Origin: Lagopus muta
Taxonomy: Eukaryota; Chordata; Aves; Galliformes; Phasianidae
Direction of reading: 5' to 3'
NCBI RefSeq assembly: GCF_023343835.1
Contig: NC_064433.1
Span: forward strand, 181,119,777-181,183,776
DNA: 64,000 bases
The notes under the pieces are model-generated. The model was given only the letters and a program-made list of their open reading frames with translations, had not been told where the DNA came from and did no database searches. Below, one piece after another: positions 3,894-50,455 of the stretch (position 1 is the first letter of the stretch; every line of letters begins with the position of its first letter). Made by a program: the position numbers and the translations under genes.

Positions 3894-17192
<13,299 letters not shown>

Positions 17193-24851: not shown

Positions 24852-25372
24852 GCCCACAGCAGGCCTAGCCTTTTATTGGCCTGTGAGCGTTGGCCTCAGC
24901 TTCACGGAGAAGCTGGAAACAGGCTTGGGGTGGAGGAGCAGTGGTGCCCGAGGGAGGCTCCAGGGCTGCAGTCCTGGCCAGGGACAGCTCTGTTCCTGCC
25001 TCTGGCAAGGGGAGTGTTGCCAGCAGGTGGAAGGAGGCCAACCTTCCTCCCCGCTTCATGGCCAGCAGCACGCCCCTCTGTGCACGGCCTGCAACAGCCG
25101 CCATCTTGCTTGGATGCCCAGGGCCCACGCCCTCAGCCCTCTGTGAGGTAGCGACTGCCTCACCACGGGTGTCACGGAGCAGCCATTGTGACCTAGGGGG
25201 CCAGGACCGGGTCAGGCCAGGCCAGGCTCAGACCGTGGGTCAGTGCGACCTGGTGAGGTGAGGAGAGCAGAGGGCAGGGAGCGAGGGGCTGCCTGAGGCT
25301 GCTCAGTGAGGAGGGGTCCCCTCGCCTGGGGGCCTGAGCTGCCAACTCACTCTCGTCCTGCTTCTCCCGCAG
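24852..25372 (+). promoter_or_regulatory. Promoter and leader region of PHF7-like copy 1
   Basis: GC-rich, CpG-containing block with an inverted CCAAT box (tattggcc, about 24873) and a YY1 consensus GCCGCCATCTTG at 25097-25108. A non-coding first exon probably ends at one of two donors, near 25148 (gtgag|gtagcg) or 25258 (gtgag|gtgagg), and splices to the AG at 25371-25372. The exact start site is not determinable here. Equivalent blocks are 35666-36186 and 46339-46859. Confidence 0.55.
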
Positions 25373-25452
25373 AGTCGGCAGAGGAGAGTGTGGAAGACAA
25401 AGCCCAGCGCTGACTGGGCAGGGACTCCGAGCGCTCACTGTCGACGCGTGCC

Positions 25453-28400
25453 ATGTCCAAAAGGAAGCAGAAGACCTCCAACCCGGAGGTTGAAGGTGAG
25501 AGCAAAGGATCTCTGCGTGCAGCTCCCTGCCGGGCAGAGGGGCACTGCGGGCTCTGCCTACTGTGTGCGAGAGGGGAGGCGGGGGCAGGCAGGGGCTCCC
25601 CACACACCGCTGGGCATGGCCCCTCTGCCCCTCAGCCGGGTTGGCCTGTGCGTGCCTGCTGGGACCGTTGGGCCTACAGCGGCCCTTTCCCCCTCGCGTC
25701 GTCCAGCCCTGCCCCTCATCCTGCATGGCAGACCCAGGGCAGGCCCCTGGCAACAGGCCTCAGGGACGCTTGGCACTCACTCCTGCTTCTCTTTGCTCTC
25801 TCCTCTTCAGTATGCATGCTGTGTCGCCGAGCAGATGTTCACCCGGACGCCTGCGGGCCCATGCTTGGCGAGAGCGGGCTTTGCGTCCACAAGTTTTGCT
25901 TGGTGAGTTCTCTCAGGGCTCCTTCCGCCCTCCAGCCAGGGATGCTCCCTCTTTTCCATCCTGTCCTCATGACATCCTGCTCTTTCCTCTGCTACAGTTT
26001 TTTGCTGACGGCCTTTACGAACACACTGCCGGACAGAGGGCGGTTCTGCAGATCCCCCTTGATGCCATCAGATGCGCAATCGAGGAGGCAGAGCAGAAGG
26101 TGAGGATCTCAAGGAACGGGGATGTTTGTGCCAGCACCAGCTAAGCCTGGAGCCTAAGCAAGCAATGGCACTCTTTCCACCTAGCACCAGGACACAATTC
26201 TTGATTAAACGAAGATCAAACTTGTCTGCTGGCGCGTCTGTAGAGCGTGACCCAGCGGTGCCTGCATTCTGTGCCCTGCCTGGAGGCGTGGCGTTGGCCT
26301 CAGAGGCCCTGAGCCTGCTGCTAATGGGGGCTGCTCTTCTCTTTCCAGCACTGCTTCGTTTGTGGAGACAAGGGGGCCTCCATCCACTGTGCAGAGACAG
26401 GCTGTGAACGCAGCTTTCATCTGCCCTGTGCCACGGATGGGGAATGTGTCACGCAGTTCTTTGGGCAGCACAGGTAAGGGCTGTCAGCAGCAGCCAACCA
26501 AGGGAGGAACCTGCACGGCTGCTTCCCAGTGCTGAAGCATGCAGCAAACTCCTTTGTGTTCCTCTGCTGACATCGCAGCACTTCTCGGCTCACCCATCCT
26601 GTCCATCTTCCCCCAGGTCCTTCTGCTGTGAGCACCGCCCTCAGCAGGCCGTGGAGGCAGCTCCAGAGCAAGACACAAACTGCGTCATCTGCCTGGAGCC
26701 CGTGGGGGACAAAAAGTCCTACCACACCATGGTGTGCCCGGTGTGCACACAGGCCTGGTTTCACCGGAGCTGCATCCAGGTAGGAGCCCTCCCTGCCCTT
26801 GCTCTGCAGTCACAGCAGGTGCTCAGCTGCACCAGGCCCCGCTCACACTCTGGCTGCTTGTGTTACCGCTGCAGGGACAGGCCATGAGTGCTGGCATTCT
26901 GCACTTCCGATGTCCCGTCTGCAAAGACAGGATGCAATTCCGGAAAGAAATGCATCTCCTCGGGATCCAAATCCCAGCCAGGTTGGTGCCGTCTGCCCAG
27001 CTCTCCAGATACTGAGGCGCAAGTGCTGTGCCTGCCCACGGATTGCCCCCAGCACGCCCAGCTGACCCTCTGCTGTCCCACGAGCCTTGGCCGCAGCTTC
27101 ATGGAGAAGCTGGGAATGGGCTTGCGCTGGAAGAGCAGGGATGTCCCAGATCCGCTCTATGCCTGGGGTCCTGAGGACTCATTGCTTTCTCTCCTTTCTC
27201 TGGCAGAAGACCTACATGGGAGGACAAGAAGAGCTATGAAACTCTGCACAAGAAACACCAGCGCTGTGATGTCGGCGAGTGCCTTCACACAGAAGGCAGG
27301 GAGCAAGCAGAGAAACACGGGTGAGTTACCACAGCAGCCCTGCGTGGGATCTCAGCCTCCCCCCAGGCTGGGGAGCAAGGACTGAGCTCAAGAGCTGCTC
27401 CCGCCACTCCCTGCTTGACTCATTTTGTGTACACAACTACAACCTCTTTTTTTTTTTCCCCAGGCCCTGGGAGCTGCTCCTGTGCACCTCGTGTGCTGCG
27501 CAAGGCACCCACCGGCTCTGCTCTAATTTGAGCAACAGCCTGAGCAGCTGGGAGTGTGACAGCTGTGCTGGCGTGGGCACAGGTAAGAGGCAAAGAGCCG
27601 TGGACTGCTGCCTTGGGGCCAGGCAAGGCCTGGCACAGCCGCTCCTCAGTGAGTTTCTCTGCCCCGGGAGGGCTGGGTTCCTCTCCCTCCACGGGGCTGA
27701 CGGGTCATCCTGTTGACCTTCCTGCCTCTCCTTACAGCCTCCAGAGCCGAGTCGCAGCTTGCTGGTCCCAGCACTGCCAGCCAGGAGGCGCCGGGACCAT
27801 CTCATAGCTCCCCAGCACCTGATGACCGCAGATCTGCCTCTACCAGCCAGGCAGCATTGGAGTCATCTCCGAGTTCCCAGCTGCCTAAGCGCAGCAGCCT
27901 GTCCAGCCAGCCCAAGACAGGACAGAGGAAAATCCTGAGATGTAAATCCAACCAAGAAGATCAAGGGAGCAGCCAGCAGCAAGCGGGGTACTCTGGCAGA
28001 AGGCAATCTAGGCAGCAGCAGGGCACAGGCCGGACAAGAAGCCGCTCTCCACTCAAGGGTCGTGCCTCAAATTCCCCCAGGCAGCTCAGAAGACCAGCTG
28101 GCAGCAGACGCTCTCCAGCCTCAGGCGTTGGGAAGTGCATGTACATCTTTGCCAGGCAGGGGGCATCCAACAATTCCCCGGGAGCTGCCAACATCAGATG
28201 CCAAAGCCAGGGACAAAGCCAGTCCTCCCTACAAGGTCCGGCATCAAATCCCTTGAGCCAGCCCCAAGGACGCCGTGGCAGCAGCCAGCAGGAAGTGGGG
28301 TACACCTCCAGAAGGCAGTCCAGGCAGCTGGGCACAGGCCGGACAAGAAGCCGCTCTCCACTCAAGGGTCGTGCTTCAAATTCCCCCAGCCAGCTCAGAA

Positions 28401-28855
28401 GACCAGCTGGCAGCAGACGCTCTCCAGCCTCAGGCATTGGGAGGAGCATACACATCTCTGCCAGGCAGGGGGCATCCAACAATTCCCCGAGGGCTGCAAA
28501 CATCAGATGCCCAAGCCAGGGACAAAGCCTGTCCTCCCTACAAGGTCCGGCATCAAATCCCTCGAGCCAGCCCCAAGGACGCCGTGGCAGCAGAATTAGC
28601 CCGGCCCAAGGTGCTGGGAGCAGCACCCAGAGCTCTGCCGGACAGGTGGCGCCGAGGTCCTCCAGGCATTCCCAGCTGCCTGAACGCAGAAGACGTTGCA
28701 GTGTTCTGCAGCGAGGGCAGAACCAAGATCGAAGCCGTTCCCCACGGGATCGTCGGCCTTCCAATTCCCAAAGACAGTCGGGAGGAAGCCTCAGCCCCCG
28801 TTCCAGGCAGCAGCGGCCATCTCAGGCACGATGCCCCTCCCGGGACCAGCCCTGA
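25453..28855 (+). CDS. PHF7-like PHD/RING protein with Ser/Arg-rich repeat tail, copy 1
   Basis: Coding exons are 25453-25495, 25811-25902, 25998-26099, 26349-26473, 26617-26779, 26875-26981, 27207-27320, 27464-27582 and 27738-28855. All phases join to give 660 residues. An in-frame TGA at 25411 supports the start. The zinc knuckle C16-C19-H41-C44 plus a PHD finger (C81, C84, C93, C98, H103, C106, C124, H127) form an extended PHD as in PHF7, G2E3 and PHF11. A RING-like finger uses C143, C146, C161, C164, H170, C173, C188, C191. A third, PHD-like finger spans C231-C283. Exon order and motifs (CFVC, FHLPC, SFCCEHRP, GIQIPAR) follow PHF7, a nuclear histone-H3 reader and H2A ubiquitin ligase of male germ cells in mammals. 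Residues 289-660 are a Ser/Arg/Gln-rich tail with two 103-104-residue repeats (RTRSRSPLKG), absent from ordinary PHF7 (about 380 residues). No HECT domain, so not G2E3. Ligase activity is inferred, not shown. Confidence 0.9.
27965..28585 (+). repeat. Two in-frame tail repeats in PHF7-like copy 1
   Basis: Repeat A is 27965-28276 (104 codons) and repeat B is 28277-28585 (103 codons). Both read GSSQQ, then GRTRSRSPLKGRASNSP, QLRRPAGSRRSPASG, RQGASNNSP, AANIRC and LQGPASNP. They differ mainly at about a dozen residues, for example PRQL versus PSQL and GVGKCMYIF versus GIGRSIHIS. Confidence 0.9.
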
Positions 28856-29221
28856 AGACACTGCAGGAGCAGCCATGGACCAGAGGGAAGAAAAGGAAGC
28901 ATTAATGGCTTACGAGCTGGTCTGGCACGGCCCTGTGACTATAGAGGCAACGGACTCATGGGCCCCAGGAGAAGCATACGGAGATTGCAGACGGGTCTAC
29001 AAAAACTACAAAGCAGCGGCAACCATCTGACGAGTCCGCGAGAGGGAGAGCGGCCCGTGTCCTGCCAGGAGCTGCAGCTTTCTTCCTCTGAGCCCAAAGT
29101 CCTCTGGGGAATGCCGCTCCTCCTTTCCCCTCCAACAACCAAAATGCCTCAAAAAAGCAGTGCACAGAACCAGAACATCAACTCTCCAACTCCCACCGCT
29201 TTACATGATGTTCTGATGTGG

Positions 29222-29277
29222 AATACCAACAACAAAAATTACAACACCACAACAAAAATTACAACACCATAACAAAA
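29222..29277 (+). repeat. Short 20-bp tandem repeat in the 3' UTR
   Basis: Two and a half units of acaacaaaaattacaacacc immediately before the poly(A) signal. Also present at about 39899-39951 and 50403-50455. Confidence 0.7.
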
Positions 29278-29283
29278 AATAAA
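29278..29283 (+). terminator. Poly(A) signal, PHF7-like copy 1
   Basis: AATAAA about 420 nt after the stop codon, at the end of a small AACAAAAATTACAACACC-type tandem repeat. The same arrangement is kept in the other copies. Confidence 0.5.
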
Positions 29284-30300
29284 ACCAAAAATTTACCCCC
29301 CAAAAAGCTGTCTAGTGCCTACTCTCTAAACCGAGAGCTGAATACTCCAGGTACACCGTTAGAGGTACACCGTGAGGATGAAGAAGGATCCAGGGTATAT
29401 CCCCTGCATAAGGAGCAGGGCAGATATCTTTACACAAGCACAGCGCTTCCAGGAGGACTGGTCAGAGAAGATCCAACCAAAGGCTTACAGGCAACACAGG
29501 CTCTTGGCATATGTATGTAGCCTCATTGCCAGAGCAGGCTGATTTTGCACAACTATGGCTACGCGACACCCAGCCTGTCCTAGCTCATACTGAGCCCCCT
29601 TGGTAGCCTCCACACGCAGCTCTTTGGTGGTGTTCACACCCAGCATGACTGCAGTGACTGCAAGGGGTCCTCTGCTGAGCTACAGCCCAGTTCAGCTGCA
29701 TCTCAGCGCTTGTCTGAGCACGCATCCGTAGGTAAAAGACATGCAATCGGACACCCCTGATGCAAGAGGACAGAGAAACTGCACTCACTCACTTCATTGC
29801 AGTATCTCCCTGCCTTCTGTCACCAGCTGCTCTTTAACCACAGGCCCTCTGCAACCTCTCTTGACGTCGGATGCCAAGATCTGATGTCAGCGGTGCCAAC
29901 CGGAGCCTGAAATATTCCAGCTGCCCACTGCCCACCTCTTCTTCCTTCCAAACCTAGCAATTTGTGCTAGGTGCATGCACACACAAATGCTGTCATTACA
30001 GCTCTGCTCTCAGCAAAACTAATGAAAGTTAGCTTGAATTACATCAGCGGAGGCCGAGCTCAGTTTTTTATCAGAGAAAAATTGAAGGAGCTAACACAAA
30101 GGAGATGCAATGAACTTGCTCATGTACCTACTTCTGGCAGTAATGCTAAGGTACTGCCCATACAGTAGCACTTACAGTCCTGGCCCCGAGACTAAACAGG
30201 CAAGGGAATGAATAAGAGTCCACTACGAATAAAATAATAAAAAAGCATATCATAGCTCCATAAGATTGGAAGCAATTCAGGGAAATTCTAAGATCACTAC
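29284..30300. other. Unit spacer between PHF7-like gene and CR1 cluster, copy 1
   Basis: About 1 kb of non-coding sequence without recognised elements, conserved in copies 2 (39958-40973) and 3 (50462-51477). Confidence 0.4.
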
Positions 30301-31225
30301 ATCACAGAGTCATGGAACGGCTTAGTTTGGAGGGGCCCTTAAAGATCATCTAGTCCCAATCCCCCTGCCGTGGGCAAGGCTGCTGTCCACCAGATCAAGC
30401 TGCCCATGATCCAGGCCAACCTGCCCTTGAATGTCTCCAGAGATGAGGCATTCACAGCCTCTCTGTGCAACCTGTGCCAGTGCCTCACCATTCTCTGAGT
30501 AACAAAATTCTTCCTAACGTCTAATCTAAATCTCCCCTCTCTTAGGTTAAAGCCTTGTCCTATCACTATCTACCTGTGTAAAAGGAAGGTATTCCTCCTA
30601 CTTGTAAGATCCCTTGAAGTACTGGAAGGCCGCAATGAGGTCTCCCTGGGGCCTTCTCTTCTCCAAGCTAAATATGCCCAACTTCCTCAACTTTTCTTCA
30701 CAAGAGAGGTGCTTCAGTCCTTCAGTCATCCTTGTGGCCCTCCTCTGGACGCAGTCCAACAGCTCCACATCCTTCCGCTACTGGGGGCTGCAGGCCCAGA
30801 CACAGTACTCCAGATAGGATCTCATGAGGGCAGAGTAGGCAGGGACAATCATCTCCCTCCCCTGCTGACCACCCCTCTTCTGATGCAGCCCAGCATCCCG
30901 TTCGCCTTTCAGGATGCAAGAGTGCACTGCTGCCTCATGTCCAAGGCTGCTCTCAGTGAGTTCTTCTCTCAGTCTGTACGCATATCTCGGATTGCCTCGA
31001 CCCAAGTGCAACACTTGGTCTTGTTAAACCTCATAAGGTTTTTGTGTATCTACTTTTTGAGTCTGGTCAGGTCCCGCCAGATGCCGTCCTTCCCTTCTAC
31101 TGTGTCAGCTGCACCACTCAGCTTGGTGCCATCAGGTAACTTGCTGAGGGTGCACACAATCCCCTGCCTATGTTGATAAAGATGCTGAAGAGCACTGGTC
31201 CCAAAACACACCTCTGGGGGATCAC
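30301..31225 (-). mobile_element. CR1 copy, minus orientation, first of the unit cluster (copy 1)
   Basis: Reverse-complement CR1 from its 3' end (tcatggaacggcttagtttg) through the RT C-terminal region to a broken FADD region (minus strand reads LSKLPDGTKLSG). The border with the next CR1 near 31225 is approximate. Confidence 0.9.
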
Positions 31226-32200
31226 GACGGATTAGGAAGCGCCTGGCCGGATGCAGCCAAGGGGTTGTGATCAATGGTTCTGTGTCAGGGTGGAGGCCGG
31301 TCACAAGCGGTGTCCCTCAGGAGTCAGTCTTGGGCCTGGTGCTCTTCAACATCTTCATCAGTGACATAGATGATGGCATGGAGTGCACCCTCAGCAAGTT
31401 TGCGGACGACACCAAGCTGAGCGGTGCAGTCGATGCACTGGAAGGAAGGAAGGGAAGCCATCCAGAGGGACCTGGACAGGCTGGAGAAGTGGGCCCATGA
31501 AAACCTAATGAGGTTCTGTAAGCCAAGTGCAGGGTGCTGCGCTTGGGTCGGGGCAATGCCAGGTATTTATACAAACTGTGGGAAGAGCTCCTGGGGAGCA
31601 GCCCTGCAGAGAAGGACGTGGCGGTGCTGGTGGACGAGAAGCTGGACGTGAGCCAACAGTGCGTGTTTGCAGCCCTGAAGGCCAACTGTGTGCAGGGCTG
31701 CACTAAAAAAGGGGCGGCCAGCAGGGAGAGGGAGGTGATTGTCCCCCTCTACTCGGCTCTTGTGAGGCCCCATCTGCAGCACTGCGTCCAGGCCTGGAGT
31801 TGGTGGAGCTCTTGGAGTGTGTCCAGAGGAGGGCCACCAAGATGATCAGAGGGCTGGAGCACCTCTGCTATGAGGAAAGGCTGAGGGAAGTGGGCTTGTT
31901 TAGCTTGGAGAAGAGAAGGCTTCAGGGGGACCTCAGTGTGGCCTTCCGGTACTTTGAGGGAGCATTTTAAACAGGAGGGGGAACGGCTGTTGACGAGGGT
32001 GGATCGAGATAGGACAAGGGGGAATGATTTTAAACTGAGACAGGGGACGTTTAAGTTAGATTTTAGGAGGAAGTTTTTCACACAGACTGTGGTACCGCAG
32101 TTGAACAGGTTGCCCAAGGAGGCTGTGGATGCCCCATCCCTGGAGGCCTTCAAGGCCAGGCTGGATGTGGCTCTGGGCAGCTGGGTAGAGGCCGAGTAGA
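31226..32200 (+). mobile_element. CR1 copy, plus orientation, second of the cluster (copy 1)
   Basis: Plus-strand reverse-transcriptase text: [20 protein letters not shown], then [31 protein letters not shown] and [17 protein letters not shown]. It keeps the FADD motif but has frameshifts. The terminal ATTCTGTG repeat is missing, so the 3' end is truncated by the next element. Confidence 0.9.
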
Positions 32201-32457
32201 GGGGGCCAAGTCCTTCTCTGCAGGGCTGCTCTCCAGGAGATCTTCCCCCAGTCTGTATAAACACCTGGCATTGCCCCGACCCAAGCGCAGCACCTCGCGG
32301 TTGCCCTTGTTGAACCTCACTCATCAGGTTTTCATGGGCCCACTTCTCCAGCCTGTCCAGGTCCCTCTGGATGTCTTCCCTTCCTTCCAGCGTATCAACT
32401 GCACCGCTCACTTTGGTGTCATCTGCAAATTTGCTGAGGGTGCACTCCATGCCATCG
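32201..32457 (-). mobile_element. CR1 internal fragment, minus orientation, third of the cluster (copy 1)
   Basis: The minus strand reads [20 protein letters not shown], the same RT region present in plus orientation at about 31379-31440. The two form an inverted repeat within 1 kb. Confidence 0.88.
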
Positions 32458-35400
32458 AGTTTATTTATTATGGGCCACTTATTTTAAAAAAGGCATTAAG
32501 GACCAAGATAATATAATAACTGTATTTTTATATAAGACTATTGACTATCCAGCTCCGTTGCGCAGAGACAGAAGTAACGCCAAGCAGCGATACAGCTGTT
32601 GCAGTAAAATGAAAGCCTAAAACTAGGGAAGAAAAACAACAGAAAGAAAAAAGAAGTGGACGGCTTGTGTGACACCCAGGATTATACTCACACTGCAAAT
32701 CACAGCTTGTGCTCTGACCTTTCAGTTTAAATTACTGCGACTGTTTTTCTAAATGCCAGCTACAAATGTCATTTTAGGCATAAAAGTTAAATTTCCTCTG
32801 GAACATGTGGATGTCCACATTGGATCCAACAGAAGATCTATCGAGGCAAAAATCTTCATTCTATTCAACAGCCCTCTTCCACTGTTGGAAGAACAGCTTA
32901 TTCACACACAATGCACTCTAATACTCTCCTGATTCGTTTCTCATCTAAGCTTAGACGTACACAACAAAATTGCTCACATCTCAGACAGTCACTTTGGGAA
33001 TCTCATCTCCTGACAAACACGGCTGGTGAAGCTTGCCTGACCTACTTTGAGAATCACTATCAAAATTAGATGAATCGTGCCCTAAAAATATTTACTTCTC
33101 CTTTGATTACAGAGAGAATCAAGCAAAATTAGCTCAAACATAAGAGTCTCTGTAAGAGACAGATTAAGGCGCCTGAGATTAACCCCGTTCAAAAGGCCTG
33201 CTGTCAAACCTGGATTTGGGTTTTTAAAGCAAAGAGGAATGGACTGCAGGGTCTGCCCCACACCTGACAAAGCTGTCTCTCCAAGGAGTAGAAATCTTCC
33301 AATGCTGTTCAGCTAAGTGGAAATGGCAATGGTAAAGCAGGGCCAAGAAACAGCCAAACAGTGGCCAGAGGAAGCAAGAGGAGCACCAAAAGGTGGCAGG
33401 CATAGCAAGAAGTTTCAGAACAAAATACTGAGCTGAACAGGAGCTGAGCAATGAGCATCTGGGGGAGCACAGTCAGGGAATAAGGGTTGTGGCTTCAGCC
33501 ACACCAGTCATTCTCAGTGGGAGGAACTAGAGGACTTTTAACAGCATTTCTTCAAGAACACTAATCCCTCCCACCTTTAACACTGTCAGCTGCTTTTGCA
33601 AGATGAGTCTGTAACTTTACTTTCCTTACCCTACACAAAGGAGGACCTTTATCTTCCTTAAGGCCTTTGTTTGAAACTTCATCCCTGTGTGAAAGCTGTT
33701 CTCCATGAAGCACTCCAGCAGTTTAATGTCTGAGATGGAGCCCGGGCTGAAGCTGTTTTAAGTTTCTAATGAAATCAGTAGAAATTGAACCTAGACCTTT
33801 CTGACTCTTTAAGCACGTCTGACAAAACGCTTAGGTCAGACTGAGATTCACTGTTGCTTCCAGCAAAGGAACTGTACAAATCAACAGCTTCTTTCTGGAC
33901 AGCATCTTTCATTAAGAAAGGAAAAAAAGAAAAAAGAAAGAAAGAAAAAAAAAAAAGCAGAAATGCCTTCAAAAACAAGAGAGCATAGTACAATGATTGC
34001 TCTTAATGAAGCCCAACAAAATCACAATCAAGAGCAAAACAAAACAAGGACAAAGCTAAGAAAAGCATTCTAAGAATCAAAACAAGGACAGGAAGAAACA
34101 AGTAACCCTGGTAGTTCAGTTCAAAACAAGCAAAAAATGCACTGAGACAGTCAGAGCACCAACATTTCACGTTAATTAACTTAGCAAAATGATACTACAG
34201 CCTCCAGAATTTATTTCTCAGATAGTATTTGAAATTCCAGTTGCCTCGTGGTAAAATAAATTTGATAAGATACATTCAGAGAGGGCAGAACACAATCTCA
34301 ACAAAATGTAACACTGCCAACCCCCTGTGACACCCTACAGATGGTTCTCACTTCAGCTTGATGAACATTAACAGCATGTATGAGAGAAGCTTTAGAACGA
34401 AATGTAGCTTCAAAGACATTCTCAAGACTAAGGTCTTCTCTCATATTTGGAGATGGAAATTTCGATCTCTCAAGAAACAAAATGGCCATAGAACAAACTT
34501 CCTTCCAATAACAGAGGCTTTTCTGATTCTTCTTCCCACTGTTCTGCTTTCCACGCTCAGTCCTATATTTCTGCTAGCTTTAGAGAAAAATAGTTTGTGC
34601 CGGAATCCCAGACTCTCTTTCATAGATGTATTGTTTTAGTCCAAAAAATAACTCTTCTTCTTCCAGATGTTCTCATTCCACACTCATCCCCTCTGCTGTC
34701 AAATTACATTAATCTGCAATGACTCTTGAGGTTACTTTTCACTCAGGGAGGAAAAAAATAGAAACAATCAAGCAAAAAAGCTAAGGAGACATTTTCCAAT
34801 TGTCATGCTTCTGAACTTGGTCAAAATTATACCTCTGTGCAGGCAGGCATCAGTGGTCGTACCATCAAGGGACGGCCCATGGTTTATCTTTGATATCTAT
34901 TCTGCTGATCCCAGCTGTAAACATGTCAGAGTTCATGATTCAGAATCAGGCCCTTGGTCTTGTTTGTCGTTCAGAATGAAATTGCTTTCACAAAATCACA
35001 CTGTGAAGCCAAATGTTGGCAGGGTGCAGCTTACCACAGTACTTCTGGAGGAATTAATTAGGTGTGGGAAAAGAGAACGGTAGATCTTTTTGATGCTTTA
35101 AGTATTCAAGAGACTTAGTTTTGGAAAGTGAAATATTACAAGATTGCTTTATCACCTTTTTTAGAAACAAGACAACTTCAAAGACCACCAAGTTCATCTA
35201 AAATGATAAAAATTTATTTTTTGATTTTTTGACAATAAGCCATGAACAACTGCTCTGAACTTCAAATGCAATCATGGCAAATCATTTGAAGCAGAGATGC
35301 CGAGAGTCTTGACATCCGGACCCCGTGGTATTTACAAGCAGAGACTGGGAGCCAGAGTGGAATTGCTCCCTTGGGTCATACGGTCCCTGCTTCCAGGGCC

Positions 35401-35665
35401 TACTGCGATCCTCTTGATCAAGTGTGCTGCACACTTCCTTTCTCTGGGAAACACTACTATTTCCAGTCCATAAAACGATTCAACAGGTCATTCTCAAAGA
35501 CTGGCTTGTCTGCGGGTTCCTTTAGCAATTTCTGTGGCCTAGGGCATAGGGTTAACGATCCTGACATCTAGTCATCTAAACAAACTCAAAAGGAACCTGC
35601 TACAGAATCCCTGCAATCAGATTGGTGTCCTTCACATCAGCCCTCTAGAGAGGAGTGCTGTGCCG
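32458..35665. other. Non-coding 3' part of unit copy 1
   Basis: About 3.2 kb, AT-richer than the gene part, with a GAAA/A-rich run at about 33919-33957. Open frames here (for example 34805-35083) show no domain I recognise. The equivalent in copy 2 is 43131-46338; it is absent from copy 3. Confidence 0.4.
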
Positions 35666-36186
35666 GCCCACAGCAGGATTAGCCCTTTATTGGCCTGTGA
35701 GCGTTGGCCTCAGCTTCACGGAGAAGCTGGAAACAGGCTTGGGGTGGAGGAGCAGTGGTGCCCGAGGGAGGCTCCAGGGCTGCAGTCCTGGCCAGGGACA
35801 GCTCTGTTCCTGCCTCTGGCAAGGGGAGTGTTGCCAGCAGGTGGAAGGAGGCCAACCTTCCTCCCCGCTTCATGGCCAGCAGCACGCCCCTCTGTGCACG
35901 GCCTGCAACAGCCGCCATCTTGCTTGGATGCCCAGGGCCCACGCCCTCAGCCCTCTGTGAGGTAGCGACTGCCTCACCACGGGTGTCACGGAGCAGCCAT
36001 TGTGACCTAGGGGGCCAGGACCGGGTCAGGCCAGGCCAGGCTCAGACCGTGGGTCAGTGCGACCTGGTGAGGTGAGGAGAGGAGAGGGCAGGGAGCGAGG
36101 GGCTGCCTGAGGCTGCTCAGTGAGGAGGGATCCCCTCGCCTGGGGGCCTGAGCTGCCAACTCACTCTCGTCCTGCTTCTCCCGCAG
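35666..36186 (+). promoter_or_regulatory. Promoter and leader region of PHF7-like copy 2
   Basis: Near-identical to the copy 1 block; the YY1 consensus is at 35911-35922. One change alters the first bases after the unit start (gcaggatt instead of gcaggcct). Confidence 0.5.
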
Positions 36187-36266
36187 AGTCGGCAGAGGAG
36201 AGTGTGGAAGACAAAGCCCAGCGCTGACTGGGCAGGGACTCCGAGCGCTCACTGTCGACGCGTGCC

Positions 36267-39200
36267 ATGTCCAAAAGGAAGCAGAAGACCTCCAACCCGG
36301 AGGTTGAAGGTGAGAGCAAAGGATCTCTGCGTGCAGCTCCCTGCCGGGCAGAGGGGCACTGCGGGCTCTGCCTACTGTGTGCGAGAGGGGAGGCGGGGGC
36401 AGGCAGGGGCTCCCCACACACCGCTGGGCATGGCCCCTCTGCCCCTCAGCCGGGTTGGCCTGTGCGTGCCTGCTGGGACCGTTGGGCCTACAGCGGCCCT
36501 TTCCCCCTCGCGTCGTCCAGCCCTGCCCCTCATCCTGCATGGCAGACCCAGGGCAGGCCCCTGGCAACAGGCCTCAGGGACGCTTGGCACTCACTCCTGC
36601 TTCTCTTTGCTCTCTCCTCTTCAGTATGCATGCTGTGTCGCCGAGCAGATGTTCACCCGGACGCCTGCGGGCCCATGCTTGGCGAGAGCGGGCTTTGCGT
36701 CCACAAGTTTTGCTTGGTGAGTTCTCTCAGGGCTCCTTCCGCCCTCCAGCCGGGGATGCTCCCTCTTTTCCATCCTGTCCTCATGACATCCTGCTCTTTT
36801 CTCTGCTACAGTTTTTTGCCGACGGCCTTTACGAACACACTGCCGGACAGAGGGCGGTTCTGCAGATCCCCCTTGATGCCATCAGATGCGCAATCGAGGA
36901 GGCAGAGCAGAAGGTGAGGATCTCAAGGAACGGGGATGTTTGTGCCAGCACCAGCTAAGCCTGGAGCCTAAGCAAGCAAGGGCACTCTTTCCACCTAGCA
37001 CCAGGACACAGTTCTTGATTAAACGAAGATCAAACTTGTCTGCTGGCGCGTCTGTAGAGCGTGACCCAGCGGTGCCTGCATTCTGTGCCCTGCCTGGAGG
37101 CGTGGCGTTGGCCTCAGAGGCCCTGAGCCTGCTGCTAATGGGGGCTGCTCTTCTCTTTCCAGCACTGCTTCGTTTGTGGAGACAAGGGGGCCTCCATCCA
37201 CTGCGCAGAGACAGGCTGTGAACGCAGCTTTCATCTGCCCTGTGCCACGGATGGGGAATGTGTCACGCAGTTCTTTGGGCAGCACAGGTAAGGGCTGTCA
37301 GCAGCAGCCAACCAAGGGAGGAACCTGCACGGCTGCTTCCCAGTGCTGAAGCATGCAGCAAACTCCTTTGTGTTCCTCTGCTGACATCGCAGCACTTCTC
37401 GGCTCACCCATCCTGTCCATCTTCCCCCAGGTCCTTCTGCTGTGAGCACCGCCCTCAGCAGGCCGTGGAGGCAGCTCCAGAGCAAGACACAAACTGCGTC
37501 ATCTGCCTGGAGCCCGTGGGGGACAAAAAGTCCTACCACACCATGGTGTGCCCGGTGTGCACACAGGCCTGGTTTCACCGGAGCTGCATCCAGGTAGGAG
37601 CCCTCCCTGCCCTTGCTCTGCAGTCACAGCAGGTGCTCAGCTGCACCAGGCCCCGCTCACACTCTGGCTGCTTGTGTTACCGCTGCAGGGACAGGCCATG
37701 AGTGCTGGCATTCTGCACTTCCGATGTCCCGTCTGCAAAGACAGGATGCAATTCCGGAAAGAAATGCATCTCCTCGGGATCCAAATCCCAGCCAGGTTGG
37801 TGCCTTCTGCCCAGCTCTCCAGATACTGAGGCGCAAGTGCTGTGCCTGCCCACGGATTGCCCCCAGCACGCCCAGCTGACCCTCTGCTGTCCCACGAGCC
37901 TTGGCCGCATCTTCATGGAGAAGCTGGGAATGGGCTTGCGCTGGAAGAGCAGGGATGTCCCAGATCCGCTCTATGCCTGGGGTCCTGAGGACTCATTGCT
38001 TTCTCTCCTTTCTCTGGCAGAAGACCAACATGGGAGGACAAGGAGAGCTATGAAACTCTGCACAAGAAACACCAGCGCTGTGATGTCGGCGAGTGCCTTC
38101 ACACAGAAGGCAGGGAGCAAGCAGAGAAACACGGGTGAGTTACCACAGCAGCCCTGCGTGGGATCTCAGCCTCCCCCCAGGCTGGGGAGCAAGGACTGAG
38201 CTCAAGAGCTGCTCCCGCCACTCCCTGCTTGACTCATTTTGTGCACACAACTACAACCTCTTTTTTTTTTTCCCCAGGCCCTGGGAGCTGCTCCTGTGCA
38301 CCTCGTGTGCTGCGCAAGGCACCCACCGGCTCTGCTCTAATTTGAGCAACAGCCTGAGCAGCTGGGAGTGTGACAGCTGTGCTGGCGTGGGCACAGGTAA
38401 GAGGCAAAGAGCCGTGGACTGCTGCCTTGGGGCCAGGCAAGGCCTGGCACAGCCGCTCCTCAGTGAGTTTCTCTGCCCCGGGAGGGCTGGGTTCCTCTCC
38501 CTCCATGGGGCTGCCGGGTCATCCTGTTGACCTTCCTGCCTCTCCTTACAGCCTCCAGAGCCGAGTCGCAGCTTGCTGGTCCCAGCACTGCCAGCCAGGA
38601 GGCGCCGGGACCATCTCATAGCTCCCCAGCACCTGATGACCGCAGATCTGCCTCTACCAGCCAGGCAGCATTGGAGTCATCTCCGAGTTCCCAGCTGCCT
38701 AAGCGCAGCAGCCTGTCCAGCCAGCCCAAGACAGGACAGAGGAAAATCCTGAGACGTAAATCCAACCAAGAAGATCAAGGGAGCAGCCAGCAGCAAGTGG
38801 GGTACTCTGGCAGAAGGCAATCTAGGCAGCAGCAGGGCACAGGCCGGACAAGAAGCCGCTCTCCACTCAAGGGTCGTGCCTCAAATTCCCCCAGGCAGCT
38901 CAGAAGACCAGCTGGCAGCAGACGCTCTCCAGCCTCAGGCGTTGGGAAGTGCATGTACATCTTTGCCAGGCAGGGGGCATCCAACAATTCCCCGGGAGCT
39001 GCCAACATCAGATGCCAAAGCCAGGGACAAAGCCAGTCCTCCCTACAAGGTCCGGCATCAAATCCCTTGAGCCAGCCCCAAGGATGCCGTGCCAGCAGCC
39101 AGCAGGAAGTGGGGTACACCTCCAGAAGGCAGTCCAGGCAGCTGGGCACAGGCCGGACAAGAAGCCGCTCTCCACTCAAGGGTCGTGCTTCAAATTCCCC

Positions 39201-39669
39201 CAGCCAGCTCAGAAGACCAGCTGGCAGCAGACGCTCTCCAGCCTCAGGCATTGGGAGGAGCATACACATCTCTACCAGGCAGGGGGCATCCAACAATTCC
39301 CCGAGGGCTGCAAACATCAGATGCCCAAGCCAGGGACAAAGCCTGTCCTCCCTACAAGGTCCGGCATCAAATCCCTCAAGCCAGCCCCAAGGACGCCGTG
39401 GCAGCAGAATTAGCCCGGCCCAAGGTGCTGGGAGCAGCACCCAGAGCTCTGCCGGACAGGTGGCGCCGAGGTCCTCCAGGCATTCCCAGCTGCCTGAACG
39501 CAGAAGACGTTCCAGTGTTCTGCAGCGAGGGCAGAACCAAGATCGAAGCCGTTCCCCATGGGATCGTCGGCCTTCCAATTCCCAAAGACAGTCGGGAGGA
39601 AGCCTCAGCCCCCGTTCCAGGCAGCAGCGGCCATCTCAGGCACGATACCCCTCCCGGGACCAGCCCTGA
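36267..39669 (+). CDS. PHF7-like PHD/RING protein with Ser/Arg-rich repeat tail, copy 2
   Basis: Exons are 36267-36309, 36625-36716, 36812-36913, 37163-37287, 37431-37593, 37689-37795, 38021-38134, 38278-38396 and 38552-39669, giving 660 residues with every splice site and all zinc ligands kept. Against copy 1 it carries K219E in exon 8 (shared with copy 3) and several private tail changes, such as GCRASS for GRRGSS, ISTRQG for ISARQG, RRSSVL for RRCSVL, RSPWDRR for RSPRDRR and ARYPS for ARCPS. A 140-bp segment just downstream of the stop is deleted relative to copies 1 and 3. It appears intact and potentially functional, presumably in the nucleus like other PHF7-type proteins. Confidence 0.9.
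38779..39399 (+). repeat. Two in-frame tail repeats in PHF7-like copy 2
   Basis: Same two-repeat layout as copy 1 (A 38779-39090, B 39091-39399). Private substitutions are concentrated from the end of repeat A onward. Confidence 0.88.
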
Positions 39670-39951
39670 AGACACTGCAGGAGCAGCCATGGACCAGAGG
39701 GAAGAAAAAGAAGCGTTAGGAGAGCGGCCCGTGTCCTGCCAGGAGCTGCAGCTTTCTTCCTCTGAGCCCAAAGTCCTCTGGGGAATGCCGCTCCTCCTTT
39801 CCCCTCCGACAACCAAAATGCCTCAAAAAAGCAGTGCACAGAACCAGAACATCAACTCTCCAACTCCCACCGCTTTACGTGATGTTCTGATGTGGAATAC
39901 CAACAACAAAAATTACAACACCACAACAAAAATTACAACACCACAACAAAA

Positions 39952-39957
39952 AATAAA
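39952..39957 (+). terminator. Poly(A) signal, PHF7-like copy 2
   Basis: AATAAA at the equivalent place, now about 283 nt after the stop because of the 140-bp deletion. Confidence 0.5.
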
Positions 39958-40973
39958 ACCAAAAATTTACCCCCAAAAAGCTGTCTAGTGCCTACTCTCT
40001 AAACCGGGAGCTGAATACTCCAGGTACACCGTTAGAGGTACACCGTGAGGATGAAGAAGGATCCAGGGTATATCCCCTGCATAAGGAGCAGGGCAGATAT
40101 CTTTACACAAGCACACCGCTTCCAGGAGGACTGGTCAGAGAAGATCCAACCAAAGGCTTACAGGCAACACAGGCTCTTGGCATATGTATGTAGCCTCATT
40201 GCCAGAGCAGGCTGATTTTGCACAACTATGGCTACGCTACACCCAGCCTGTCCTAGCTCATACTGAGCCCCCTTGGTAGCCTCCACACGCAGCTCTTTGG
40301 TGGTGTTCACACCCAGCATGACTGCAGTGACTGCAAGGGGTCCTCTGCTGAGCTACAGCCCAGTTCAGCTGCATCTCAGCGCTTGTCTGAGCACGCATCC
40401 GTAGGTAAAAGACATGCAATCGGACACCCCTGATGCAAGAGGACAGAGAAACTGCACTCACTCACTTCATTGCAGTATCTCCCTGCCTTCTGTCACCAGC
40501 TGCTCTTTAACCACAGGCCCTCTGCAACCTCTCTTGACGTCGGATGCCAAGATCTGATGTCAGCGGTGCCAACCGGAGCCTGAAATATTCCAGCTGCCCA
40601 CTGCCCACCTCTTCTTCCTTCCAAACCTAGCAATTTGTGCTAGGTGCATGCACACACAAATGCTGTCATTACAGCTCTGCTCTCAGCAAAACTAATGAAA
40701 GTTAGCTTGAATTACATCAGCGGAGGCCGAGCTCAGTTTTTTATCAGAGAAAAATTGAAGGAGCTAACACAAAGGAGATGCAATGAACTTGCTCATGTAC
40801 CTACTTCTGGCAGTAATACTAAGGTACTGCCCATACAGTAGCACTTACAGTCCTGGCCCCGAGACTAAACAGGCAAGGGAATGAATAAGAGTTCACTATG
40901 AATTAAATAATAAAAAAGCATATCATAGCTCCATAAGATTGGAAGCAATTCAGGGAAATTCTAAGATCACTAC

Positions 40974-41898
40974 ATCATAGAGTCATGGAACGGCTTAGTT
41001 TGGAGGGGCCCTTAAAGATCATCTAGTCCCAATCCCCCTGCCGTGGGCAAGGCTGCTGTCCACCAGATCAAGCTGCCCATGATCCAGGCCAACCTGCCCT
41101 TGAATGTCTCCAGAGATGAGGCATTCACAGCCTCTCTGTGCAACCTGTGCCAGTGCCTCACCATTCTCTGAGTAACAAAATTCTTCCTAACGTCTAATCT
41201 AAATCTCCCCTCTCTTAGGTTAAAGCCTTGTCCTATCACTATCTACCTGTGTAAAAGGAAGGTATTCCTCCTACTTGTAAGATCCCTTGAAGTACTGGAA
41301 GGCCGCAATGAGGCCTCCCTGGGGCCTTCTCTTCTCCAAGCTAAATATGCCCAACTTCCTCAACTTTTCTTCACAAGAGAGGTGCTTCAGTCCTTCAGTC
41401 ATCCTTGTGGCCCTCCTCTGGACGCAGTCCAACAGCTCCACATCCTTCCGCTACTGGGGGCTGCAGGCCCAGACACAGTACTCCAGATAGGATCTCATGA
41501 GGGCAGAGTAGGCAGGGACAATCATCTCCCTCCCCTGCTGACCACCCCTCTTCTGATGCAGCCCAGCATCCCGTTCGCCTTTCAGGATGCAAGAGTGCAC
41601 TGCTGCCTCATGTCCAAGGCTGCTCTCAGTGAGTTCTTCTCTCAGCCTGTACGCATATCTCGGATTGCCTCGACCCAAGTGCAACACTTGGTCTTGTTAA
41701 ACCTCATAAGGTTTTTGTGTATCTACTTTTTGAGTCTGGTCAGGTCCCGCCAGATGCCGTCCTTCCCTTCTACTGTGTCAGCTGCACCACTCAGCTTGGT
41801 GCCATCAGGTAACTTGCTGAGGGTGCACACAATCCCCTGCCTATGTTGATAAAGATGCTGAAGAGCACTGGTCCCAAAACACACCTCTGGGGGATCAC
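40974..41898 (-). mobile_element. CR1 copy, minus orientation (unit copy 2)
   Basis: Duplicate of the 30301-31225 element, carried along in the segmental duplication. Confidence 0.9.
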
Positions 41899-42873
41899 GA
41901 CGGATTAGGAAGCGCCTGGCCGGATGCAGCCAAGGGGTTGTGATCAATGGTTCTGTGTCAGGGTGGAGGCCGGTCACAAGCGGTGTCCCTCAGGAGTCAG
42001 TCTTGGGCCTGGTGCTCTTCAACATCTTCATCAGTGACATAGATGATGGCATGGAGTGCACCCTCAGCAAGTTTGCGGACGACACCAAGCTGAGCGGTGC
42101 AGTCGATGCACTGGAAGGAAGGAAGGGAAGCCATCCAGAGGGACCTGGACAGGCTGGAGAAGTGGGCCCATGAAAACCTAATGAGGTTCTGTAAGCCAAG
42201 TGCAGGGTGCTGCGCTTGGGTCGGGGCAATGCCAGGTATTTATACAAACTGTGGGAAGAGCTCCTGGGGAGCAGCCCTGCAGAGAAGGACGTGGCGGTGC
42301 TGGTGGACGAGAAGCTGGACGTGAGCCAACAGTGCGTGTTTGCAGCCCTGAAGGCCAACTGTGTGCAGGGCTGCACTAAAAAAGGGGTGGCCAGCAGGGA
42401 GAGGGAGGTGATTGTCCCCCTCTACTCGGCTCTTGTGAGGCCCCATCTGCAGCACTGCGTCCAGGCCTGGAGTTGGTGGAGCTCTTGGAGTGTGTCCAGA
42501 GGAGGGCCACCAAGATGATCAGAGGGCTGGAGCACCTCTGCTATGAGGAAAGGCTGAGGGAAGTGGGCTTGTTTAGCTTGGAGAAGAGAAGGCTTCAGGG
42601 GGACCTCAGTGTGGCCTTCCGGTACTTTGAGGGAGCATTTTAAACAGGAGGGGGAACGGCTGTTGACGAGGGTGGATCGAGATAGGACAAGGGGGAATGA
42701 TTTTAAACTGAGACAGGGGACGTTTAAGTTAGATTTTAGGAGGAAGTTTTTCACACAGACTGTGGTACCGCAGTTGAACAGGTTGCCCAAGGAGGCTGTG
42801 GATGCCCCATCCCTGGAGGCCTTCAAGGCCAGGCTGGATGTAGCTCTGGGCAGCTGGGTAGAGGCCGAGTAGA
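41899..42873 (+). mobile_element. CR1 copy, plus orientation (unit copy 2)
   Basis: Duplicate of the 31226-32200 element, with the FADDTKLSG region near 42077-42103. Confidence 0.9.
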
Positions 42874-43130
42874 GGGGGCCAAGTCCTTCTCTGCAGGGCT
42901 GCTCTCCAGGAGATCTTCCCCCAGTCTGTATAAACACCTGGCATTGCCCCGACCCAAGCGCAGCACCTCGCGGTTGCCCTTGTTGAACCTCACTCATCAG
43001 GTTTTCATGGGCCCACTTCTCCAGCGTGTCCAGGTCCCTCTGGATGTCTTCCCTTCCTTCCAGTGTATCAACTGCACCGCTCACTTTGGTGTCATCTGCA
43101 AATTTGCTGAGGGTGCACTCCATGCCATCG
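42874..43130 (-). mobile_element. CR1 internal fragment, minus orientation (unit copy 2)
   Basis: Duplicate of the 32201-32457 element. Confidence 0.88.
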
Positions 43131-46100
43131 AGTTTATTTATTATGGGCCACTTATTTTAAAAAATGCATTAAGGACCAAAATAATATAATAACTGTATTT
43201 TTATATAAGACTATTGACTATCCAGCTCCGTTGCGCAGAGACAGAAGTAACGCCAAGCAGCGATACAGCTGTTGCAGTAAAATGAAAGCCTAAAACTAGG
43301 GAAGAAAAACAACAGAAAGAAAAAAGAAGTGGACGGCTTGTGTGACACCCAGGATTATACTCACACTGCAAATCACAGCTTGTGCTCTGACCTTTCAGTT
43401 TAAATTACTGCGACTGTTTTTCTAAATGCCAGCTACAAATGTCATTTTAGGCATAAAAGTTAAATTTCCTCTGGAACATGTGGATGTCCACATTGGATCC
43501 AACAGAAGATCTATCGAGGCAAAAATCTTCATTCTATTCAACAGCCCTCTTCCACTGTTGGAAGAACAGCTTATTCACACACAATGCACTCTAATACTCT
43601 CCTGATTCGTTTCTCATCTAAGCTTAGACGTACACAACAAAATTGCTCACATCTCAGACAGTCACTTTGGGAATCTCATCTCCTGACAAACACGGCTGGT
43701 GAAGCTTGCCTGACCTACTTTGAGAATCACTATCAAAATTAGATGAATCGTGCCCTAAAAATATTTACTTCTCCTTTGATTACAGAGAGAATCAAGCAAA
43801 ATTAGCTCAAACATAAGAGTCTCTGTAAGAGACAGATTAAGGCGCCTGAGATTAACCCCGTTCAAAAGGCCTGCTCTCAAACCTGGATTTGGGTTGTTAA
43901 AGCAAAGAGGAATGGACTGCAGGGTCTGCCCCACACCTGACAAAGCTGTCTCTCCAAGGAGTAGAAATCTTCCAATGCTGTTCAGTTAAGTGGAAATGGC
44001 AATGGTAAAGCAGGGACAAGAAACAGCCAAACAGTGGCCAGAGGAAGCAAGAGGAGCACCAAAAGGTGGCAGGCATAGCAAGAAGTTTCAGAACAAAATA
44101 CTGAGCTGAACAGGAGCTGAGCAATGAGCATCTGGGGGAGCACAGTCAGGGAATAAGGGTTGTGGCTTCAGCCACACCAGTCATTCTCAGTGGGAGGAAC
44201 TAGAGGACTTTTAACAGCATTTCTTCAAGAACACTAATCCCTCCCACCTTTAACACTGTCAGCTGCTTTTGCAAGATGAGTCTGTAACTTTACTTTCCTT
44301 ACCCTACACAAAGGAGGACCTTTATCTTCCTTAAGGCCTTTGTTTGAAACTTCATCCCTGTGTGAAAGCTGTTCTCCATGAAGCACTCCAGCAGTTTAAT
44401 GTCTGAGATGGAGCCCGGGCTGAAGCTGTTTTAAGTTTCTAATGAAATCAGTAGAAATTGAACCTAGACCTTTCTGACTCTTTAAGCACGTCTGACAAAA
44501 CGCTTAGGTCAGACTGAGATTCACTGTTGCTTCCAGCAAAGGAACTGTACAAATCAACAGCTTCTTTCTGGACAGCATCTTTCATTAAGAAAGGAAAAAA
44601 AGAAAAAAGAAAGAAAGAAAAAAAAAAAGCAGAAATGCCTTCAAAAACAAGAGAGCATAGTACAATGATTGCTCTTAATGAAGCCCAACAAAATCACAAT
44701 CAAGAGCAAAACAAAACAAGGACAAAGCTAAGAAAAGCATTCTAAGAATCAAAACAAGGACAGGAAGAAACAAGTAACCCTGGTAGTTCAGTTCAAAACA
44801 AGCAAAAAATGCACTGAGACAGTCAGAGCACCAACATTTCACGTTAATTAACTTAGCAAAATGATACTACAGCCTCCAGAATTTATTTCTCAGATAGTAT
44901 TTGAAATTCCAGTTGCCTCGTGGTAAAATAAATTTGATAAGATACATTCAGAGAGGGCAGAACACAATCTCAACAAAATGCAACACTGCCAACCCCCTGT
45001 GACACCCTACAGATGGTTCTCACTTCAGCTTGATGAACATTAACAGCATGTATGAGAGAAGCTTTAGAACGAAATGTAGCTTCAAAGACATTCTCAAGAC
45101 TAAGGTCTTCTCTCATATTTGGAGATGGAAATTTCGATCTCTCAAGAAACAAAATGGCCATAGAACAAACTTCCTTCCAATAACAGAGGCTTTTCTGATT
45201 CTTCTTCCCACTGTTCTGCTTTCCACGCTCAGTCCTATATTTCTGCTAGCTTTAGAGAAAAATAGTTTGTGCCGGAATCCCAGACTCTCTTTCATAGATG
45301 TATTGTTTTAGTCCAAAAAAATAACTCTTCTTCTTCCAGATGTTCTCATTCCACACTCATCCCCTCTGCTGTCAAATTACATTAATCTGCAATGACTCTT
45401 GAGGTTACTTTTCACTCAGGGAGGAAAAAAATAGAAACAATCAAGCAAAAAAGCTAAGGAGACATTTTCCAATTGTCATGCTTCTGAACTTGGTCAAAAT
45501 TATACCTCTGTGCAGGCAGGCATCAGTGGTCGTACCATCAAGGGACGGCCCATGGTTTATCTTTGATATCTATTCTGCTGATCCCAGCTGTAAACATGTC
45601 AGAGTTCATGATTCAGAATCAGGCCCTTGGTCTTGTTTGTCGTTCAGAATGAAATTGCTTTCACAAAATCACACTGTGAAGCCAAATGTTGGCAGGGTGC
45701 AGCTTACCACAGTACTTCTGGAGGAATTAATTAGGTGTGGGAAAAGAGAACGGTAGATCTTTTTGATGCTTTAAGTATTCAAGAGACTTAGTTTTGGAAA
45801 GTGAAATATTACAAGATTGCTTTATCACCTTTTTTAGAAACAAGACAACTTCAAAGACCACCAAGTTCATCTAAAATGATAAAAATTTATTTTTTGATTT
45901 TTTGACAATAAGCCATGAACAACTGCTCTGAACTTCAAATGCAATCATGGCAAATCATTTGAAGCAGAGATGCCGAGAGTCTTGACATCCGGACCCCGTG
46001 GTATTTACAAGCAGAGACTGGGAGCCAGAGTGGAATTGCTCCCTTGGGTCATACGGTCCCTGCTTCCAGGGCCTACTGCGATCCTCTTGATCAAGTGTGC

Positions 46101-46338
46101 TGCACACTTCCTTTCTCTGGGAAACACTACTATTTCCAGTCCATAAAACGATTCAACAGGTCATTCTCAAAGACTGGCTTGTCTGCGGGTTCCTTTAGCA
46201 ATTTCTGTGGCCTAGGGCATAGGGTTAACGATCCTGACATCTAGTCATCTAAACAAACTCAAAAGGAACCTGCTACAGAATCCCTGCAATCAGATTGGTG
46301 TCCTTCACACCAGCCCTCTAGAGAGGAGTGCTGTGCCG
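43131..46338. other. Non-coding 3' part of unit copy 2
   Basis: Near-identical to 32458-35665. No gene recognised. Confidence 0.4.
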
Positions 46339-46859
46339 GCCCACAGCAGGCCTAGCCCTTTATTGGCCTGTGAGCGTTGGCCTCAGCTTCACGGAGAAGC
46401 TGGAAACAGGCTTGGGGTGGAGGAGCAGTGGTGCCCGAGGGAGGCTCCAGGGCTGCAGTCCTGGCCAGGGACAGCTCTGTTCCTGCCTCTGGCAAGGGGA
46501 GTGTTGCCAGCAGGTGGAAGGAGGCCAACCTTCCTCCCCGCTTCATGGCCAGCAGCACGCCCCTCTGTGCACGGCCTGCAACAGCCGCCATCTTGCTTGG
46601 GTGCCCAGGGCCCACGCCCTCAGCCCTCTGTGAGGTAGCGACTGCCTCACCACGGGTGTCACGGAGCAGCCATTGTGACCTAGGGGGCCAGGACCGGGTC
46701 AGGCCAGGCCAGGCTCAGACCGTGGGTCAGTGCGACCTGGTGAGGTGAGGAGAGCAGAGGGCAGGGAGCGAGGGGCTGCCTGAGGCTGCTCAGTGAGGAG
46801 GGATCCCCTCGCCTGGGGGCCTGAGCTGCCAACTCACTCTCGTCCTGCTTCTCCCGCAG
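46339..46859 (+). promoter_or_regulatory. Promoter and leader region of PHF7-like copy 3
   Basis: Near-identical to copies 1 and 2; the YY1 consensus is at 46584-46595. No promoter-destroying change is visible, so copy 3 could be transcribed. Confidence 0.5.
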
Positions 46860-46939
46860 AGTCGGCAGAGGAGAGTGTGGAAGACAAAGCCCAGCGCTGA
46901 CTGGGCAGGGACTCCGAGCGCTCACTGTCGACGCGTGCC

Positions 46940-49900: not shown

Positions 49901-50033
49901 CCAAGATCGAAGCCGTTCCCCACGGGATCGTCGGCCTTCCAATTCCCAAAGACAGTCGGGAGGAAGCCTCAGCCCCCGTTCCAGGCAGCAGCGGCCATCT
50001 CAGGCACGATGCCCCTCCCGGGACCAGCCCTGA
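46940..50033 (+). CDS. PHF7-like PHD/RING protein, copy 3 with a single tail repeat
   Basis: Exons are 46940-46982, 47298-47389, 47485-47586, 47836-47960, 48104-48266, 48362-48468, 48694-48807, 48951-49069 and 49225-50033, giving 557 residues. The zinc-finger part is intact. The first base of exon 3 is A instead of T, changing residue 15 from Val to Glu beside the first zinc ligand. The final exon is shorter by 309 bp (103 codons): the two tail repeats of copies 1 and 2 are replaced by one hybrid that begins as repeat A and continues as repeat B. The frame stays open to the same stop. The gene lies at the truncated end of the array but keeps its own 3' UTR and poly(A) signal. Confidence 0.9.
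49452..49763 (+). repeat. Single hybrid tail repeat in PHF7-like copy 3
   Basis: One 104-codon repeat whose first part matches repeat A (GSSQQQVGYSGRR) and whose remainder matches repeat B (PSQL, GIGRSIHIS). The switch falls inside the roughly 45-bp stretch, from gggcacaggccgg to gggtcgtgc, that is identical in A and B. Confidence 0.9.
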
Positions 50034-50455
50034 AGATCCTGCAGGAGCAGCCATGGACCAGAGGGAAGAAAAGGAAGCGTTAATGTCTTACGAGCTGGTC
50101 TGGCACGGCCCTGTGACTATAGAGGCAACGGACTCGTGGGCCCCAGGAGAAGCATACGGAGATTGCAGACGGGTCTACAAAAACTACAAAGCAGCGGCAA
50201 CCATCTGACGAGTCCGCGAGAGGGAGAGCGGCCCGTGTCCTGCCAGGAGCTGCAGCTTTCTTCCTCTGAGCCCAAAGTCCTCTGGGGAATGCCGCTCCTC
50301 CTTTCCCCTCCAACAACCAAAATGCCTCAAAAAAGCAGTGCACAGAACCAGAACATCAACTCTCCAACTCCCACCGCTTTACGTGATGTTCTGATGTGGA
50401 ATACCAACAACAAAAATTACAACACCACAACAAAAATTACAACACCACAACAAAA

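Follow-up and report, generated by a model that had tools for sequence, protein, structure and literature searches.

The mammalian E3 ligase PHF7, encoded by a single-copy gene and ending in a short C-terminus, combines an extended PHD finger (ePHD), a RING finger and a last PHD finger, a module represented by the human chain 8jwj with UBE2D2. An expansion of the gene in chicken is reportedly the subject of Fouchecourt et al. 2022, which a turkey genome paper cites. Passages on the mouse protein describe a reader of H3K4me2/3 that ubiquitylates H2A and whose loss impairs histone-to-protamine exchange (PMC6792021, a review; PMC12751476). For birds, the PHF7 passages of a further study give 63 predicted co-orthologues in chicken, with a relative testis expression of at least 50% for duplicated copies, and 38 copies in zebra finch, 17 in turkey and 6 in duck (PMC6609395); the passage in the turkey genome paper likewise reports an expansion, citing the 2022 chicken paper (PMC10360393). 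In the corresponding passage on the canary genome, the zebra finch expansion was not found, with assembly problems as one possible cause, a result that counts against a general expansion of PHF7 in birds (PMC4373106). Here we describe a PHF7-type gene of Lagopus muta, located at 25453-28855 in a window of 64,000 nucleotides (the whole stretch analysed, positions 181,119,777 to 181,183,776 of contig NC_064433.1), whose last exon adds a 372-residue basic tail to this module. The gene belongs to a large bird family that is already known and is no unique fusion. With a probability of about one half, we read it as a galliform-branch copy of an amplified avian PHF7-like family in which the basic tail would tether a histone ubiquitin ligase to spermatid chromatin, a mechanism that we infer.

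Rebuilt from the DNA, the gene is intact, with nine exons, GT-AG introns and a protein of 660 amino acids. The first-pass annotation, made from the letters of the window, had joined PHF7-type fingers to a long Ser/Arg/Gln-rich tail within one gene, and both the gene model and homology bear this out. It had also placed the tail exon correctly: this is the ninth and last exon, 1118 nt in length, bounded by an acceptor AG at 27736-27737 and a TGA stop at 28853-28855, and it encodes 372 tail residues, counting the split first codon. The annotation named one copy of the gene (copy 1); the window holds three, and a fourth lies outside it. A phmmer search matched the human PHF7 chain 8jwj to residues 14-285 at an E-value of 1.8e-60. 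By Pfam, zf-HC5HC2H scored above its cut-off, while three weaker zinc-binding families, RING among them, scored below theirs. We checked 27 of the 30 Cys/His positions that are invariant in our alignment of relatives (A1), and all were present in copies 1-4. At residue 161 of the bird protein, in the RING, a Cys occurs in 28 bird rows and one turtle row of this alignment, and a Ser occurs in the human chain (SPCC); judging from this residue, a zinc ligand in the mammalian RING may be shifted relative to that of birds.

To the ePHD-RING-PHD module shared with mammalian PHF7, the bird protein adds its 372-residue basic tail. A structure was modelled with AlphaFold for P0001, a relative from Tympanuchus, from a 29-sequence alignment. 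The mean predicted local distance difference test score (pLDDT) was 51.8, with the ePHD and RING mostly at 70-90, the last PHD finger partly below 50 and residues 285-556 all below 50, the tail residues 291-556 scoring ~29-40. By Foldseek, the top six PDB matches of the model were PHF7 chains (best E-value 4.1e-23), followed by PHF6. The low-confidence, disorder-like model suggests that the tail is probably disordered.

A long tail is usual among bird PHF7-like proteins. A first protein search returned 227 hits, 120 of which were listed; six were dropped because the end of the last PHD finger was unrecognisable, and 114 were scored. Among these scoreable hits, the median tail measured 214 residues, and 91 of the 114 tails were at least 80 residues long with Arg and Ser together making up at least 30%, some of the 91 being Ser-rich with just ~10% Arg. 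Another search returned 259 hits, of which 120 were listed. The relatives, whose orthology rests on similarity, include proteins of Tympanuchus, Centrocercus, Gallus and Numida that can be aligned along the tail as far as a common C-terminal end. Over aligned residues, the tail of copy 4 is 94% identical to that of Tympanuchus P0001 (253/268), 72% to that of Gallus P0005 (186/258) and 71% to that of Numida P0003 (189/267); the corresponding identities in the finger part are 94%, 81% and 75%. The Numida relative and another chicken member are named 'serine/arginine repetitive matrix protein 2-like' in databases. The first-pass annotation knew of no described protein with this layout; predicted proteins with the same tail do exist in databases for all four birds, and a PHF7 literature search, covering result lists and PHF7 passages, turned up nothing to suggest that the tail has been described. 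Its view that ordinary PHF7 ends ~100 residues past the third finger holds for mammals but not for the bird PHF7-like proteins listed here, given the median above.

The same picture was found across the genome assembly. The tail exon matches no fewer than 40 distinct places, seven of its 47 matches being second pieces of a place already counted, and the finger protein has at least 77 distinct RING-exon places among the listed part of its 189 matches, many in tandem clusters; 135 of 468 candidates were scored for the RING-exon count, and copy counts are lower bounds. A tail match was present at 29 of 30 RING-exon loci screened. The 30 include the four focal copies, so that the match holds at 26 of 26 non-focal loci, and copy 4 is the sole miss because the stretch examined ends before its tail. 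This screen measures similarity to relatives' tails, whether or not the frame is open, and among its loci are many near-identical tandem copies. An open Ser/Arg-rich tail was found at 10 of 11 other gene loci in the genome. The focal gene thus shares with the avian family its finger order, its many clustered copies and the Ser/Arg-rich tail of most scoreable members listed; it differs in that copies 1 and 2 carry a doubled 103-residue tail unit, and we saw no other difference in kind. Several tandem PHF7-like clusters lie at 60.4-71.6 Mb of contig C59, which holds 25 of the RING-exon places; here the closest chicken query was P0013, from a contig of 86 Mb that is perhaps Z. One tail-like exon, at a twelfth paralogous locus, L019 (C3:72748000-72756000), is accompanied by no finger exon in the 8 kb examined and was excluded from the locus count; it may be an orphaned fragment or else a gene that is distant and diverged.

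The two 103-104-residue repeats that had been noticed in the tail are real. Tandem Repeats Finder (TRF) reports a period of 309 with 2.0 copies, and a second repeat search of the exon found a 270-nt pair with 94% identity at a spacing of 309. Copies 1-4 carry 2, 2, 1 and 1 units, respectively; tail length changes through in-frame gain and loss of repeats. The tail has an isoelectric point of 12.0 and a charge of +53, with 81 Ser, 58 Arg and 48 Gln among its 372 residues, values compatible with the putative nucleic-acid-binding basic tail that had been suggested for it. Protamines are dominated by Arg, with a content far above 16%, and the tail's own Arg fraction of 16% (58/372) rules out protamine identity. 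The protein resembles such sperm nuclear basic proteins in that its tail is basic and contains Arg and Ser and its family is testis-associated; it differs in this Arg content and in the fusion of its tail to an E3 ligase module.

By analogy with mouse PHF7, the fingers would read H3 in elongating spermatids and add ubiquitin to histones before protamine loading. The tail, with its positive charge and several RRSP/SRSP sites, would most likely hold the ligase to DNA or chromatin electrostatically and without specificity, and Ser phosphorylation would probably tune this tether. Such a tether would raise the residence of the ligase on chromatin, and we propose no role in splicing.

Openness alone is weak evidence for the tail. 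The open frame is longer than base composition would usually produce: in 7 of 1000 dinucleotide shuffles of the tail exon, at least one of three frames stayed open for 371 codons, and in 1 of 1000 the same frame did so; other frames of exon 9 are also unusually open, however, with 286 residues antisense and 257 in another forward frame. The tail frame is settled as real because in-frame relatives keep it up to the C-terminus. We accordingly rejected a chance open frame, the close relatives sharing the tail frame throughout. A pseudogene is not supported for copies 1-4, which have no internal stops and have GT-AG introns.

The main rival to a chromatin tether is a slack extension: the last exon, prone to repeats and biased in composition, would drift with little function of its own while carried on functional fingers. 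We regard this account as possible though somewhat doubtful. Among distant paralogues, the tail was compared by its ratio of non-synonymous to synonymous substitution rates (dN/dS), dropping pairs with dS <0.1; the remaining pairs share ancestry and are non-independent. A protein-guided set of ten tails, from which L014 (nearly the same as L013) and L018 and L023 (acceptor mis-assigned) were omitted, gave a median of 0.60 in frame against 1.06 and 1.01 in the other frames (43/45 pairs). A frame-blind set of eleven tails, with L018 added, gave 0.71 (0.52-1.08) against 0.98 and 0.88 (53/55 pairs), and is the safer estimate because protein-guided alignment leans towards a low in-frame dN. In the frame-blind DNA alignments, 171 of 236 internal gaps were multiples of three. 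We read this as a tail frame kept under weak constraint among distant paralogues, which speaks against mere slack, as does the retention of a Ser/Arg-rich tail by most scoreable members. The constraint is nonetheless looser than that on finger exons 4, 5 and 8, with a median of 0.37 (44 pairs from ten sequences, a slightly different set with L018 in place of L017), and the wide variation in tail length also fits a slack extension. Several further results weigh against a functional tether. Compared with copy 4, the tails of copies 1-3 gave dN/dS values of 1.21, 0.96 and 1.11, without stops, while the finger part of the same pairs gave 0.53-0.68; copies 1 and 2 differ in the tail by eight replacement changes and one silent change. 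Recent constraint is therefore not visible. At L023 (C1:1855000-1862500), the exception among the 11 other loci, the tail stops after ~72 residues, and the predicted chicken proteins P0022 and P0036 seem, by eye, to take their C-terminus from a different frame of the tail exon; some copies may thus do without a tail. RS/SR dipeptides number 26 where 25.3 are expected from composition (995 of 2000 shuffles reach 26), which favours slack and weakens the proposed phosphorylation step. The P0001 model, which is of poor overall quality and deviates from 8jwj by a root-mean-square distance of ~14 Å over 271 columns, supports the domains and not their arrangement. The first-pass annotation had named a dN/dS near 1 with stops in related species as one finding that would speak against its tail. 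The first half was seen among close copies and an early stop in one of 11 paralogues, but the close copies are free of stops and the distant medians lie well below 1.

Less probable still are two accounts that grant the tail a different function. The first-pass annotation had called the tail typical of SR splicing factors and proposed that a chromatin reader could in this way be coupled to RNA processing; the tail would be an RS-like domain that sends the histone reader and ligase to nuclear speckles, which we consider improbable. Metazoan SR proteins are defined by one or two RRM domains and an RS domain of at least 50 residues with more than 40% RS. The bird protein resembles SR and SR-related splicing proteins (SRSF, SRRM) in its Ser/Arg-rich, probably disordered tail with RSRSP/RRSP motifs; RRSP/SRSP-type motifs number 8 against 0.7 expected (0/500 shuffles), a count inflated because the repeat unit is doubled, and the matrix-protein names of two relatives point the same way. 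It differs in that a Pfam search of the protein found no RRM, RS content reaches 28% in the best 50-residue window and 12% over the whole tail, the longest RS run is RSRS, and the dipeptides stand at the level expected by chance. These features rule out membership of the SR splicing factors, and by enrichment the tail is not an RS domain. Under the 20% rule given for plants in a passage of PMC8583155, the tail would pass. Some relatives have tails that are more RS-like than the focal one: among eight relatives' tails checked, P0012 has 48% RS and P0108 and P0058 have 40%. The other account, a long shot in our view, derives both tail and copy number from conflict or drive in sperm chromatin, with fast-changing basic tails set against protamines or rival chromatin factors and copies expanding for dosage. 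The many clustered RING-exon places fit it, as does the comparison of copies 1 and 4, in which exons are ~3 times more divergent than introns: exons 1-8 differ at 36/865 sites, with exon 7 highest (14/114), and exon 9 at 30/809, compared with 18/1420 for introns and 14/1321 for the 3' flank. This excess includes silent sites, however, with dS values of 0.068 and 0.033 against an intron divergence of 0.013. Gene conversion is therefore as likely a cause as selection, and either conversion or CpG mutability would suffice without selection. The upstream row, with differences at 40/500 sites and 101 gapped columns, was excluded from this comparison, as it enters sequence that is non-homologous in copy 4; its homologous part of 440 nt is 99.1% identical by BLAST.

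The origin of the tail was approached with a profile of its unit, built from ten units that were pattern-extracted from 23 hand-picked, mostly Neoaves proteins, with the 95th percentile of shuffled tails as threshold and groups hand-picked from the listed proteins. In the ratite entries, eight tails measure 62-64 residues, and several of these close with a basic motif; other ratite tails span 119-146. The profile exceeded its threshold in 11 of 14 ratite proteins (median 13.0 bits, shuffle maximum 4.2), in 8 of 11 from passerines (3.3 and 7.2 bits, respectively) and in 14 of 31 from galliforms (1.6 and 10.0 bits), and not in the one turtle protein scored (0/1); the window's own copies scored at most 4.1 bits. 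By this measure, the link of the tail to the ratite motif appears good between ratites and Neoaves, weak in passerines and galliforms, and absent in the one turtle. A broader picture would then be that bird PHF7 forms a large set of E3 ligases, each with its own chromatin- or DNA-compacting tail grown by in-frame tandem amplification from a short basic motif at the C-terminus that ratites still show, so that ligase and transition-protein-like element act as one molecule in histone-to-protamine exchange; we think this rather unlikely as a whole.

Should the tail be a functional tether, the PHF7 paralogues of birds would amount to a natural series of ligases whose affinity for chromatin is graded, and they could serve to test both the timing of histone removal in sperm and the reason for the amplification in birds. 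Should it be slack, the family would show how a repeat-prone last exon can inflate predicted proteins and attract names that suggest splicing-matrix proteins. For the window alone, the result is mainly explanatory, in that its gene is an ordinary member of a big bird family. The features of the locus are collected in the table.

Table. Exons of copy 1, tail repeats and further copies of the PHF7-type gene; positions refer to the window except for copy 4.
Feature	Coordinates	Strand	Basis and remarks
Copy 1, exon 1	25453..25495	+	ATG at 25453; open frame and splice model (GT-AG); copies 2 and 3 identical at 43/43 sites
Copy 1, exon 2, first part of extended PHD finger	25811..25902	+	Splice model, homology
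Copy 1, exon 3	25998..26099	+	Splice model, homology
Copy 1, exon 4, second part of extended PHD, inside zf-HC5HC2H match	26349..26473	+	Splice model, Pfam, homology
Copy 1, exon 5, end of ePHD and start of RING	26617..26779	+	Splice model, Pfam, homology
Copy 1, exon 6, end of RING	26875..26981	+	Splice model, homology
Copy 1, exon 7, start of last PHD finger	27207..27320	+	Splice model, homology
Copy 1, exon 8, end of last PHD finger	27464..27582	+	Splice model, homology
Copy 1, exon 9, 372-residue Ser/Arg/Gln-rich basic tail and stop	27738..28855	+	Splice model, composition
Two tandem 309-bp (103-codon) units in copy 1 tail exon	27968..28593	+	TRF, repeat search
Three-unit tandem array, head to tail	24852..52033	+	Shift of 10.5-10.8 kb between copies, ~99% identical
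Copy 2 (9 exons, 660 aa, two repeat units)	36267..39669	+	Exon 9 99.2% identical to copy 1
Copy 3 (9 exons, 557 aa, one repeat unit)	46940..50033	+	Splice model
Copy 4, outside the window	C1:181193132-181196999	inverted	Downstream; more diverged, intact, one repeat unit

In the flanks of the array, open frames at 2982-3461, 10075-10479, 20858-21400 and 58939-59343 have stretches in common, which we take to resemble CR1-type reverse transcriptase.

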